DNA of 64,000 nucleotides from NCBI GenBank assembly GCA_003221515.1, contig QHSI01000098.1, positions 1 to 64,000 of the forward strand, written 5' to 3'. Below the pieces are notes generated by a model. It saw nothing but the letters and a program-made list of their open reading frames with translations, was not told where the DNA came from and searched no databases. Both the position numbers and the translations under genes were made by a program. Positions within the stretch are counted from its first letter, which is position 1. Each line of letters begins with the position of its first letter. Shown here one piece after another: positions 10,875 through 15,717 of the stretch. Source of the DNA: Candidatus Rokuibacteriota bacterium (GTDB lineage: Bacteria > Methylomirabilota > Methylomirabilia > Rokubacteriales > CSP1-6).

Positions 10875-12178
10875 CGACGCCGGCGGAGACGCTCCGGCAG
10901 CGGATCGCGGCCGGCCCGACCGTGGGCGTGATGGGGCTCGGCTACGTCGGCCTGCCGCTGGCGGTCGCGTTCGCCGAATCCGGCGCGACCGTGCTCGGCG
11001 TCGATCTCGACGCGCGGCGCGTCGAGGCCGTTCAGAAGGGGGAGTCCTTCGTCGAGGACGTGCCGGCCGAGTCGGTCGCGCGCCTCGTCCAGGCCGGGCA
11101 TCTCCGCGCCTCCGGTGACACCGGAGCGCTGCGGGAGGCCGACGCGATCGTCATCTGCGTGCCCACGCCGCTCGGTAAGTCGCGGGAGCCCGACATCTCC
11201 TTCATCGTGGCGGCGGCCGACGCGATCGCCGCCATCATCCACCGCGGCCAGCTCGTGGTGCTCGAGTCGACGACGTATCCCGGCACCACGCAGGAGGTCT
11301 TGCGCCCGCGCTTCGAGGCGCGCGGGCTCACCGCCGGGCGGGACTTCTTCCTGGCCTTCTCGCCGGAGCGGATCGATCCCGGCAATCGCCGCTGGACGCT
11401 GCGCGACATCCCCAAGGTGGTCGGCGGCGCCACCGAGCAGTGCCGTGACCTCGCCGCGGCGCTCTACGCCCGCATCGTGCGCGAGGTCGTCCCGGTGTCG
11501 CGGCCCGAGGCGGCCGAGATGGTGAAGCTCTTCGAGAACACGTTTCGCTCGGTCAACGTGGCGCTGGTCAACGAGTTCGCCATCATGTGTCGCCGCCTGG
11601 GCCTCTCGGTGTGGGAGGTGATCGCCGCGGCGTCGACGAAGCCCTTCGGGTTCATGGCGTTCTATCCCGGCCCCGGCCTCGGCGGCCACTGCCTGCCGTC
11701 GGACCCCCACTACCTCTCGTGGAAGGTGCGGCTCGAAGGCTACGAGCCGCGCTTCATCACGTTCGCCGACGAGATCAACCGCCGGATGCCGACGTACGTC
11801 GTGGAGATGGTCGTCGACGCGCTCAACGATCGCGGTCGGGCGCTCCGCGGCGCGCGCGTCCTCGTCATGGGCGTCGCCTACAAGCCGGGCGTGGCCGACA
11901 CGCGCGACTCGCCCGCGCTCGAGATCATCGACCTCCTGCGCGCGAAGGGCGCGACGGTCGCCTATCACGACCCGTACGTGCCGTCGATCGCGGTCGGCAC
12001 CGCCACCCTGGAGTCGTGCGCCTGGCCCGAGGGGCTGGCGGCGCGGGACGTGGTGCTGATCCTGACCGCCCACGCCGGCTACGACTGGGCGGCGATCGTC
12101 CGGGAGGCGCCGCTGGTGATCGACACGCGCAACGCGACGGGGAGCCTGCCCCCCACGGGCCACGTCGTCCGCCTCTAG
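10871..12178 (+). CDS. Nucleotide-sugar dehydrogenase (UDP-HexNAc 6-dehydrogenase, WbpA/WecC-like)
   Basis: GVMGLGYVGLPLAVAFAE, VLESTTYPGTT, SPERIDPGN, KLFENTFRSVNVALVNE, PGPGLGGHCLPSDP; GTGA overlap with upstream gene. Confidence 0.9.
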   Translation: MTTPAETLRQRIAAGPTVGVMGLGYVGLPLAVAFAESGATVLGVDLDARRVEAVQKGESFVEDVPAESVARLVQAGHLRASGDTGALREADAIVICVPTPLGKSREPDISFIVAAADAIAAIIHRGQLVVLESTTYPGTTQEVLRPRFEARGLTAGRDFFLAFSPERIDPGNRRWTLRDIPKVVGGATEQCRDLAAALYARIVREVVPVSRPEAAEMVKLFENTFRSVNVALVNEFAIMCRRLGLSVWEVIAAASTKPFGFMAFYPGPGLGGHCLPSDPHYLSWKVRLEGYEPRFITFADEINRRMPTYVVEMVVDALNDRGRALRGARVLVMGVAYKPGVADTRDSPALEIIDLLRAKGATVAYHDPYVPSIAVGTATLESCAWPEGLAARDVVLILTAHAGYDWAAIVREAPLVIDTRNATGSLPPTGHVVRL

Positions 12179-13059
12179 TGCCGCTCTCGGCGATCTTCGT
12201 CTCGCTCCGTCCGCGCCAGTGGGTGAAGAACCTGTTCGTCTTCGCCGGCCTCGTCTTCTCGCAGCGGCTGTTCACGGACGCGGCGTGGACGTCGCTGGCG
12301 GCATTCGCCGTGTTCTGCGCGCTGTCGGGCGCGATCTACCTGCTCAACGACGTGGCCGACCGCGAACGCGACCGCCTGGACCCACGCAAGGGCTTGCGCC
12401 CGATCGCGGCCGGCCGCCTGTCGGTCGGCGCCGCGCTCACGACGGCGGTCGTGCTCATCGGGGCCGGCCTCGGGGTCGGCACGCTGCTCTCGCGCCGCTT
12501 CCTGATCGCGGCCCTCCTGTACGTGGTCCTGCTCGTCGCCTACTCCGCCTGGCTCAAGCACGTCGTCATCGTCGACGTGATCGTGGTCGCGGGCGGGTTC
12601 GTGCTGCGCGCGATCGCCGGCGCCGTCGTCATCGACGTCGAGATGTCGGGCTGGCTCCTCATCTGCACGATCCTCCTGGCGCTGTTCCTGGCGCTCGGCA
12701 AGCGGCGCTACGAGTACCTGGCGCTGGATCGTGACGCCGCGCTCCATCGCCCGATCCTGGCCGAGTACAGCCCGGCCCTGCTGGATCAGATGATCGCCGT
12801 CGTCACCGCGTCGACGGTGACGGCCTACGCGCTCTACACGATGTCGCCGGAGACCGTGGCGAAGTTCCGCACGCACCTCTTGCCGGCGACGCTGCCGTTC
12901 GTGCTCTACGGGGTCTTCCGGTACCTGTACCTGCTCTACCAGCGGCAACTCGGCGGCAATCCCTCGGAGCTGCTCCTCGGCGACCGCGCGCTCCTGATCA
13001 ACACGATCGGCTGGATCTGCGCGGTCCTGTTGATCATTTACGGCGCACGGCTGGAGTAG
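12178..13059 (+). CDS. UbiA-family prenyltransferase (decaprenyl-phosphate phosphoribosyltransferase-like)
   Basis: RPRQWVKNLFVFAGLVFS, YLLNDVADRERDRLDPRKGLRPIAAG, LGKRRYEYL; multiple TM segments; GTG start at preceding stop. Confidence 0.85.
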   Translation: MPLSAIFVSLRPRQWVKNLFVFAGLVFSQRLFTDAAWTSLAAFAVFCALSGAIYLLNDVADRERDRLDPRKGLRPIAAGRLSVGAALTTAVVLIGAGLGVGTLLSRRFLIAALLYVVLLVAYSAWLKHVVIVDVIVVAGGFVLRAIAGAVVIDVEMSGWLLICTILLALFLALGKRRYEYLALDRDAALHRPILAEYSPALLDQMIAVVTASTVTAYALYTMSPETVAKFRTHLLPATLPFVLYGVFRYLYLLYQRQLGGNPSELLLGDRALLINTIGWICAVLLIIYGARLE

Positions 13060-13071
13060 AATACCTAGATC

Positions 13072-15717
13072 ATGCCCAGCGCGGTCGCTCTGCTCCGCAC
13101 GCGTCCGGAGACCGTCGTCGAAGACTACGGGCGACTGATGCGCCTCGTGAAGTACGACCAGGTGCTCCACCGCGATCAGGATCTGATCCTCAAGCTCAAC
13201 CTCTCGTGGACCAAGTACTTCCCGGCGTGCTCGAGCCAGCCGTGGCAGGTCGACGGCGTGCTGACGACCCTGCTCGAGGACGGCTACGACCGCCGCCGGA
13301 TCTTTCCCGTCGAGAACAAGACGGTCGTCACCGAGCCGATCGCGGGCTGCCGGAACAACAGGTGGTCGCCGGTGCTCGAGCGTCACGGCGTGCCGTTCAT
13401 CCCGCTGCCCGGCGTCGAGTGGACCGTCTACAAGTTCCAGTCGCCGCTCCTGAAGCTGAACGCGATCTTTCCCGAGGGCATCGAGATCCCGAAGATGTAC
13501 GTGGGGAAAAATGTGCTGCACCTGCCGACGGTGAAGTGCGTGCACCCGGATACCGAGATCCTCCTCGCTGATGGAAGCATGGTGAGGGCGGAGGCCCTGA
13601 TCAAGGAGTGGCAAGTCCGGGAGCCCGCCCACGATCTTCCGGACGGCGACCGGGTGAGCGAAGGCGAGGTTCGAGTCGTCTCTCTCTCTGGAGGCGATCT
13701 GACCGGCGGACACGCGACGCACTTCTGGCGCACACCGCTGACTGACGAGGCGGTCTGGACAATACGAACCCGCACCGGCCGAGAGGTCACGACATCACGC
13801 CGGCATCCGTTCCTCACTCCGGAGGGATGGCGGCCGGCAGGAGAGATCCGCGTTGGCGACCGTATCGCGGTGGCACGTCGGATCCGCATCAATGGCGCGC
13901 CTCAGATCCTGCCGCGCGTTGCCTCCTTGGGCCACGAAGCGATCAACGTCGAGCGACTCCGGCTCCGCCCCGGACGTAAGTACAGCGTCCACGTTCAGCG
14001 GAAGATCATCCGCGCGTATCTGGATGGAGCGACGATCACAGAGCTCGCCCGCGAACTCGGGACGCATTGGGAGACGATTCGCGGAATCGTCCACCGCTAT
14101 GGCATTCAGTCTCGATGGCGTCGCGTCTGGGCGACAGCGCCCGTGCGTACGTCACCCGAGTTCTGGCGCTGGATGGGCTACTTCATCGCCGAGGGTTACG
14201 CGTACGACGCAAGCGGCTCCTATCGAGTCTCGTTCGCGAACACCGACCCCGAGGTCTGCGATGACTACATCACGCTCTGCCGTTCACTCTTCGGTGTCAA
14301 GCCAAGGACGCGTGGCAACGAAATCTACTTCGACGCGCTGAACCTCCGCCCATTCTTTGAGACGCTCGGCTTCACGGTGCCGACGAACTCGGCGACGAAG
14401 ACCGTGCCTGACCTGCTGTTCAAGTGTCCCGACGCCGAGATCGCTGCGTTCCTCCAAGCGTACTTCGACGGCGACGGCACCGTGGACAAGTGCGGGGTCT
14501 CCGCGACGACGAAGAGCCGGCGCCTGGCCCGGCAGATCCAGATGCTTCTATCCCGCCTCGGCATCATCTCATTCGTCGGCACGACATGGAGTCGAGCGAC
14601 GAATGGACGGATGACCGAGAAGAGGGAGTACGCGCAAAACGTCATTTATGGCGACGATGTCGTGACACTCGCCGGGTACGTGACGTTCCGCTGTGTTCAC
14701 AAGCAGGGGAACCTTGACGTCCTGGCGGCCCGGCGTCGAGCCGGCAAGCGCCCGAGTAACTGGGACACCATTCCGATCGCTCCAGCGCTGTTTCGGATGG
14801 TGCGCTGCGGACTGGGGCTGACCCAGGAGAGTGCGGGTCGACCCGGCTCGGTCAACAATATCGAGAACGGCTACACCGAGCCGACCCGCCCGGTCGCCCG
14901 TTACTTCATAGAGCGATTCGAGCGCCTCGATTCGTCCGGACGATTTGCCGACGAGATCGCCTACATGAGATTTCTGGCGAGCGAAGATATCGCGTGGGAC
15001 CGGATTGAGGATGTCGTAACCGAGCCGGCGGACGTGCCGTTCCTTTACGATCTGTCGGTCGAGGGGACCCACGCGTTTGTCGGGAACGGAGTGATCCTTC
15101 ACAACACCCATGGACACTCCCGCACGACCGGCGCGATCAAGAACGCGTTCGGCGGGCTCTTGAAGGAAGTGCGCCACTACGCGCACGAGTTCATGCACGA
15201 AGTGCTGGTGGACCTCATGTACATGCAGCGCGAGCTGCACCCCAACGTATTCGCAGTCGTGGACGGAACGGTGATGGGCGACGGCGCCGGCCCGCGCACG
15301 ATGGTGCCGCGCGTCGGCAACCTGATCCTCGCCTCCGCCGACCAGGTGGCGGTCGACGCGATCGCCGCGCGGATCATGGGGTTCGATCCGCTGTCGATTC
15401 CTTATCTACGGATGTGCCAGGAGCGCGGGCTCGGCGTGGCCGATCCCAGGCGCATCGAGATCCTCGGCGACACCGACGCGGCGGCGCTCTCGATGGGCTT
15501 CAAGACCAGCCGGTCCCTCGTGATCTGGGGCGACCAGCTGATCCGCCGGGGTCCGCTGCGCCCACTCAAGCGCCTGCTGCTCCACTCGCCGCTCGTCGTG
15601 TGGGCGCCGTTCGCCTCGAACGTCTACCACGACCTGCTCTGGTACCCGACGATCGGCCGCTCGCGCATTCGGGCCTTCGCGGCGACGCCGTGGGGTCGAC
15701 TGTTCGAGACGTACTGA
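13072..15717 (+). CDS. DUF362 domain-containing protein interrupted in frame by an intein
   Basis: 881-aa ORF; extein halves ...GKNVLHLPTVK / THGHSRTTGAIKNAFGGLLKEV... form a DUF362-like motif once residues 156-678 are removed. Confidence 0.88.
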   Translation: MPSAVALLRTRPETVVEDYGRLMRLVKYDQVLHRDQDLILKLNLSWTKYFPACSSQPWQVDGVLTTLLEDGYDRRRIFPVENKTVVTEPIAGCRNNRWSPVLERHGVPFIPLPGVEWTVYKFQSPLLKLNAIFPEGIEIPKMYVGKNVLHLPTVKCVHPDTEILLADGSMVRAEALIKEWQVREPAHDLPDGDRVSEGEVRVVSLSGGDLTGGHATHFWRTPLTDEAVWTIRTRTGREVTTSRRHPFLTPEGWRPAGEIRVGDRIAVARRIRINGAPQILPRVASLGHEAINVERLRLRPGRKYSVHVQRKIIRAYLDGATITELARELGTHWETIRGIVHRYGIQSRWRRVWATAPVRTSPEFWRWMGYFIAEGYAYDASGSYRVSFANTDPEVCDDYITLCRSLFGVKPRTRGNEIYFDALNLRPFFETLGFTVPTNSATKTVPDLLFKCPDAEIAAFLQAYFDGDGTVDKCGVSATTKSRRLARQIQMLLSRLGIISFVGTTWSRATNGRMTEKREYAQNVIYGDDVVTLAGYVTFRCVHKQGNLDVLAARRRAGKRPSNWDTIPIAPALFRMVRCGLGLTQESAGRPGSVNNIENGYTEPTRPVARYFIERFERLDSSGRFADEIAYMRFLASEDIAWDRIEDVVTEPADVPFLYDLSVEGTHAFVGNGVILHNTHGHSRTTGAIKNAFGGLLKEVRHYAHEFMHEVLVDLMYMQRELHPNVFAVVDGTVMGDGAGPRTMVPRVGNLILASADQVAVDAIAARIMGFDPLSIPYLRMCQERGLGVADPRRIEILGDTDAAALSMGFKTSRSLVIWGDQLIRRGPLRPLKRLLLHSPLVVWAPFASNVYHDLLWYPTIGRSRIRAFAATPWGRLFETY
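13537..15105 (+). other. Intein (about 523 aa) with Hint splicing domain and LAGLIDADG homing endonuclease motifs
   Basis: Starts C-VHPDTEILLADGS (block A); TSRRHPFLTPEGWRPAGEIRVGDRI (block B); LAGLIDADG-like FWRWMGYFIAEGYAYD and AAFLQAYFDGDGTVDK; ends FLYDLSVEGTHAFVGNGVILHN followed by Thr (+1). Confidence 0.92.

Follow-up and report, generated by a model that had tools for sequence, protein, structure and literature searches.

The DUF362 gene of a Candidatus Rokuibacteriota genome carries an insertion that we interpret, with a probability of about 0.93 and from sequence comparison, as a class 1 LAGLIDADG homing intein, for which we propose splicing, homing, sporadic spread and diversification of the empty insertion site. 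This reading rests on the distribution, since at least six changes must be assumed on the extein tree to account for the presence of the intein, and on the conservation of both splicing and endonuclease residues.

Organisation of the DUF362 gene and its insertion

We analysed a stretch of 64,000 nucleotides (the window), in which positions 13072–15717 (+ strand, as are all features of the gene described below) form one uninterrupted ORF of 881 codons that encodes a DUF362 protein together with an intein. The intein comprises residues 156–678 of the precursor (13537–15105), i.e. 523 aa from Cys1 to Asn523. Its junctions are ...LPTVK/C on the N side and HN/THGHS on the C side (the slash marks the splice junction). 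These are the coordinates given in the first-pass annotation, and they were reproduced exactly.

The N-extein (13072–13536; DUF362 residues 1–155) ends in ...VLHLPTVK and matches the DUF362 model. The C-extein (15106–15717), delimited by the ORF and likewise covered by the DUF362 match, starts with Thr+1 and His+2, includes KNAFGG and runs through the stop codon. In silico removal of the intein gave a 358-aa extein with the join LPTVK-THGHSRTTGAIKNAFGG. Intein-free orthologues are mostly 354–362 aa long and have the two flanks contiguous, in line with the reading of the two flanks as parts of one DUF362 protein.

The precursor matched the Pfam models Intein_splicing (2.6e-18; 66.8 bits, cut-off 35.8), LAGLIDADG_3 (7.9e-20; two stretches above cut-off, the best at precursor residues 456–515) and DUF362 (PF04015; 1.8e-16, 61.2 bits, two stretches above cut-off). 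For comparison, an intein-free orthologue (L009) scored 84 bits with PF04015 (cut-off 24). The match to TIGR01445 (intein_Nterm; 47.7 bits, cut-off 24.5) begins at residue 156, which is Cys1, and that to TIGR01443 (intein_Cterm; 30.7 bits, cut-off 15.6) ends at residue 679, which is Thr+1. The description of the segment as a full-length intein with splicing blocks and two LAGLIDADG motifs was upheld in each structural point. It had also been called less GC-rich than its flanks; the direction was right, but the difference is mild in total GC (intein 63.2%, N-extein 64.5%, C-extein 67.8%, window 70.2%). The clearest composition signal was GC3, with 77% in the intein vs 93% and 91% in the exteins. 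Repeats at the intein borders were looked for and not found.

Occurrence of the intein

The same DUF362 gene was present without the intein in nine of nine other species of the genus examined (89–93% identity). The gene neighbourhood is unchanged with or without the intein: genes for a nucleotide-sugar dehydrogenase and a UbiA-type decaprenyl-phosphate phosphoribosyltransferase lie upstream, and that for glutamyl-tRNA synthetase (GltX) downstream. The intein is absent from the nearest species as judged by the flanking genes (L008 in genome G002; UbiA 92%, GltX 93%). The segment is an insertion, and the nine intein-free congeners exclude that it is a normal domain of the host protein.

In a profile search (profile A1), the intein was detected in eight of the 58 genomes of the bacterial family, always at the DUF362 site, and the intein was not found elsewhere among the 96 genomes of the phylum. 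The seven intein-bearing family genomes besides that of the window belong to other genera. In one genome (G045), two similar but non-identical copies are located on two contig ends (L039 and L040), which reflects either a strain mixture or a duplicated gene. Related inteins at the identical insertion site, for which the first-pass annotation had proposed a metagenome search, are present in one Chloroflexi MAG and one Armatimonadetes MAG. The inteins of these MAGs share 42–47% identity with that of the window and have the junctions K/CVHPDTE and HN/TH, their other halves being on separate contigs. Among 301 and 201 genomes searched in the two phyla, respectively, no second case was found. Phages and plasmids were considered as a source and rejected, as only distant LAGLIDADG or intein matches (~19–29% identity) were obtained and nothing was found in viral contigs.

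The bacterial family is rich in inteins, with 54 of 58 genomes matching the splicing model. DUF362 does lie outside replication and nucleotide metabolism, as had been pointed out when the host was called unusual, but the abundance of inteins in the family makes this host less surprising.

Diversification of the empty site

Across the bacterial family, the segment from −8 to +6 about the insertion point underwent 6.6 changes per site on the tree vs a protein average of 2.9, and within the genus it is the fastest 14-residue window. The K-x-H...(I/V)KN.FGG motif at this position had been described as conserved. This is true of DUF362 proteins of other phyla, but in the bacterial family residues −8 to −5, −2, +1, +5 and +6 are hypervariable. 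All 33 orthologues sampled from Chloroflexi and a further phylum have Thr at +1, and by rate the segment is placed 322nd of 349 there.

Thr is found at +1 in all intein-bearing alleles, and Val in 13 of the 29 empty alleles. Val is unable to act as a splicing nucleophile, and Val+1 alleles should therefore be closed to productive invasion, barring co-conversion of the flank. The association of Thr or Val with intein presence gave p = 0.034 (Fisher) and was not significant with independent pairs, so we take it as expected chemistry and not as proof. Cys at −2 is confined to Val+1 alleles (seven of 13 vs none of the 23 with Thr, among them the intein-bearing ones; L005–L034).

We see roughly even odds that the homing intein drove an arms race at its own site. 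Empty alleles would escape by changes in the target DNA and by Thr+1 to Val replacement, and would thereby have made a motif with almost no variation in other phyla one of the most rapidly evolving regions of the protein, with occupied alleles uniform upstream. The main competing explanation, which we consider possible but doubtful, is that the flank became hypervariable through relaxed constraint or an altered function of DUF362, independently of the intein. The host gene indeed seems dispensable in the bacterial family, because an orthologue was not found in several near-complete genomes, and equal variability is seen in a loop at +115 to +135. Relaxed constraint does not readily explain, however, why the segment shows the largest rate shift between the family and Chloroflexi (rank 1 of 298 aligned windows), centred on the intein site, nor why Lys−1, His+2 and His+4 stay invariant or nearly so while their neighbours −2 and +1 flip. 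Moreover, synonymous differences at the site are raised as well (0.41 vs 0.27, genus), and the intein-occupied alleles have no amino-acid excess upstream (0.13 vs 0.14 overall).

Indications of intein movement

On the extein tree, six changes are needed to account for intein presence; 216 of 500 shuffled-label sets were as low, which means no clustering beyond that of shuffled labels. The window sequence sits within an otherwise intein-free, well-supported genus clade, and its intein-free congeners point to a recent acquisition by this lineage. In one pair of loci (L038 and L042), the inteins are closer than the exteins (dS 0.06 vs 0.22; identity 98.5% vs 94.1%), suggesting a recent transfer. 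In other pairs the intein has diverged more than the extein, which indicates that most copies are old or fast-evolving. Between most genera the intein is saturated at synonymous sites, and these other pairs therefore say little on timing.

Over the 30 nt that precede the insertion point, intein-bearing genera are markedly more alike mutually than they are to intein-free ones, with the largest excesses of 345 windows. None of 5000 label permutations reached this excess, a number that serves as a guide only as it ignores relatedness. The upstream 30 nt of the window gene share 0.90 identity with L042 and L043 from other genera vs 0.63 with the closest species (L008); in the rest of the gene the order is reversed (0.82–0.83 vs 0.91). 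The same window scan gave no comparable excess in the downstream flank. The upstream similarity fits either co-conversion or an endonuclease that requires a particular target, two options that are inseparable because a downstream counterpart is missing. Together with Thr+1 in occupied alleles, the pattern is suggestive of homing accompanied by either co-conversion or target matching, from which empty alleles may escape.

The putative endonuclease contains a first LAGLIDADG motif (WMGYFIAEGY; 14170–14199) with the acidic Glu219 and a second one (FLQAYFDGDGTV; 14449–14484) with Asp313, the latter in the best stretch of the LAGLIDADG_3 match. A helix-turn-helix within the endonuclease part (13999–14103; HTH_28 1e-6 and HTH_Tnp_ISL3 1.5e-6, both above cut-off; helices with pLDDT of ~70–80) follows the splicing part, precedes the first motif and probably serves in DNA recognition. 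By fold, the endonuclease matched PI-PkoII, PI-SceI and I-DmoI. The structure predicted for the entire precursor (mean pLDDT 42) is credible in the endonuclease region only, and that of the intein alone (mean pLDDT 53.8) is weak outside it.

The patchiness could also be a relic of old invasions and losses of an intein that still splices and whose endonuclease is no longer active. The saturated synonymous sites agree with this, and the absence from nine of ten species of the genus would fit losses too. We nevertheless regard an inactive endonuclease as unlikely: Glu219, Asp313 and also Lys288 do not vary even in homologues of as little as 42–47% identity, dN is much lower than dS, and recent movement is indicated by the L038/L042 pair.

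Splicing residues and proposed cycle

The region of block A (CVHPDTEILLADG; 13537–13575), at which the TIGR01445 match starts, provides the first nucleophile, Cys1, kept in all eight sequences of alignment A1 that cover it. The block B region (TGREVTTSRRHPFLTPEGW...; 13771–13881) contains His90 and matches PDB entries for the DnaB, RecA and PI-PkoII inteins; its first residue is Ser (SxxH) instead of the usual Thr (TxxH) in all covering homologues. The C-terminal splicing blocks (LYDLSVEGTHAFVGNGVILHN; 15043–15105), located by TIGR01443 and the homologue alignment, end in His522-Asn523. In our alignment (A1), Cys1, His90, His522 and Asn523 are conserved in all homologues covering each, which removes the doubt, raised in the first-pass annotation, that Cys1 and Asn523 might vary. 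The HN/T junction is present in all homologues that cover the intein C-terminus.

A block A Cys nucleophile, a block B His, penultimate His, terminal Asn and Thr+1, combined with precise absence from orthologues, place the intein in class 1. By profile as well as by fold, the nearest matches among solved structures are inteins associated with homing endonucleases. Splicing is predicted from these matches, the conserved residues and the known chemistry of class 1 inteins, the steps of which are summarised in PMC7765530. A Hint-domain processing protein of the Hedgehog or BIL type, which would cleave without ligation, shares the Hint-type splicing motifs but is highly improbable here, given the endonuclease, the terminal His-Asn, the nucleophilic Thr+1, the position in the middle of the conserved DUF362 domain and the existence of precise empty alleles.

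For the class 1 homing intein we propose the following cycle. The 881-aa precursor would be translated whole. Judging from the conserved residues, Cys1 would attack the Lys155–Cys1 bond and the chain would pass to Thr+1; cyclisation of Asn523, assisted by His522, would leave the exteins joined as an ordinary 358-aa DUF362 protein. The LAGLIDADG endonuclease of the excised intein, with its helix-turn-helix, would cut an empty DUF362 allele at the same site, and repair would copy in the intein plus some flanking DNA, as distribution and flank similarity suggest. The intein would thus spread sporadically between genera within the bacterial family, and empty sites would diversify in DNA and protein, including replacement of Thr+1 by Val, which would not support splicing.

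Comparison with known inteins

The MCM-d intein of Haloferacales has Ser at +1 when the site is occupied and mostly a splicing-blocking Pro when it is empty; its insertion site is variable, co-conversion of the flanks has been inferred, and experimental homing data exist (PMC10643990). The DUF362 intein resembles it in being a LAGLIDADG intein with a +1 nucleophile in occupied sites and a blocking residue in many empty ones, and also in its variable insertion site and the possible co-conversion of its flank. It differs in its host, which is a bacterial DUF362 protein and not an archaeal replicative helicase, and in its Val block, and it is known from sequence alone whereas MCM-d has been studied in homing experiments (PMC10643990).

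The next relatives, and the nearest in another host protein, come from the same bacterial family and are inserted at the Walker A motif of SMC (GPNGCGK/C...HN/S; profile E ~1e-47 to 1e-49, endonuclease and C-terminal blocks). They differ from the DUF362 intein in host, insertion site and +1 residue (Ser). Such SMC inteins were seen in several genera (L057, L058, L059 and L086, with GPNGAGK/C in L059). PI-PkoII and TliVMA (2cw7, 7qss/7qsu), the closest by profile and fold among solved structures, differ in having archaeal hosts (a V-ATPase for TliVMA) and share 22–27% identity in the aligned part. The genome of the window has a second intein (G000:C164:34650-35825; L045) in a 1457-aa DnaE-like polymerase ORF, with its own endonuclease-like region and an HN/SHASSF junction.

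Neither a published DUF362 intein nor a paper pairing an intein with Rokubacteria was found in the open-licence PMC literature. The element is of a familiar type and DUF362 a new host for it, within a family rich in inteins. What is new here is the diversified empty site beside the insertion point, fast in the intein-rich family and among the slowest segments in Chloroflexi. The patchy presence and the fast-changing empty site in relatives point to a gene-drive-like intein history. The list of intein hosts is extended beyond replication and nucleotide metabolism to DUF362 in a conserved UbiA-DUF362-GltX neighbourhood, and close relatives provide a natural data set of occupied, empty-permissive (Thr+1) and empty-blocked (Val+1) alleles. 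Since the site has apparently changed repeatedly in a family in which inteins are common, host escape from a homing element becomes testable.

The host gene and its neighbours

To our knowledge, no biochemical function is known for DUF362 (PF04015). The family has been placed in Pfam clan CL0471 with LarA/DUF2088 (PMC11770544); a match to a LarA structure, sought with the DUF362 orthologue sequence profile, was not found. The gene for the UbiA-type decaprenyl-phosphate phosphoribosyltransferase (12175–13059 of the window) adjoins DUF362, and does so at further loci of several phyla (L090, L092, L095–L097, L114 and L115). This adjacency hints at a joint pathway for the DUF362 family. In genome G015, a DUF362 remnant of ~100 codons (L048:2962-3237) lies between the sugar dehydrogenase and GltX genes.
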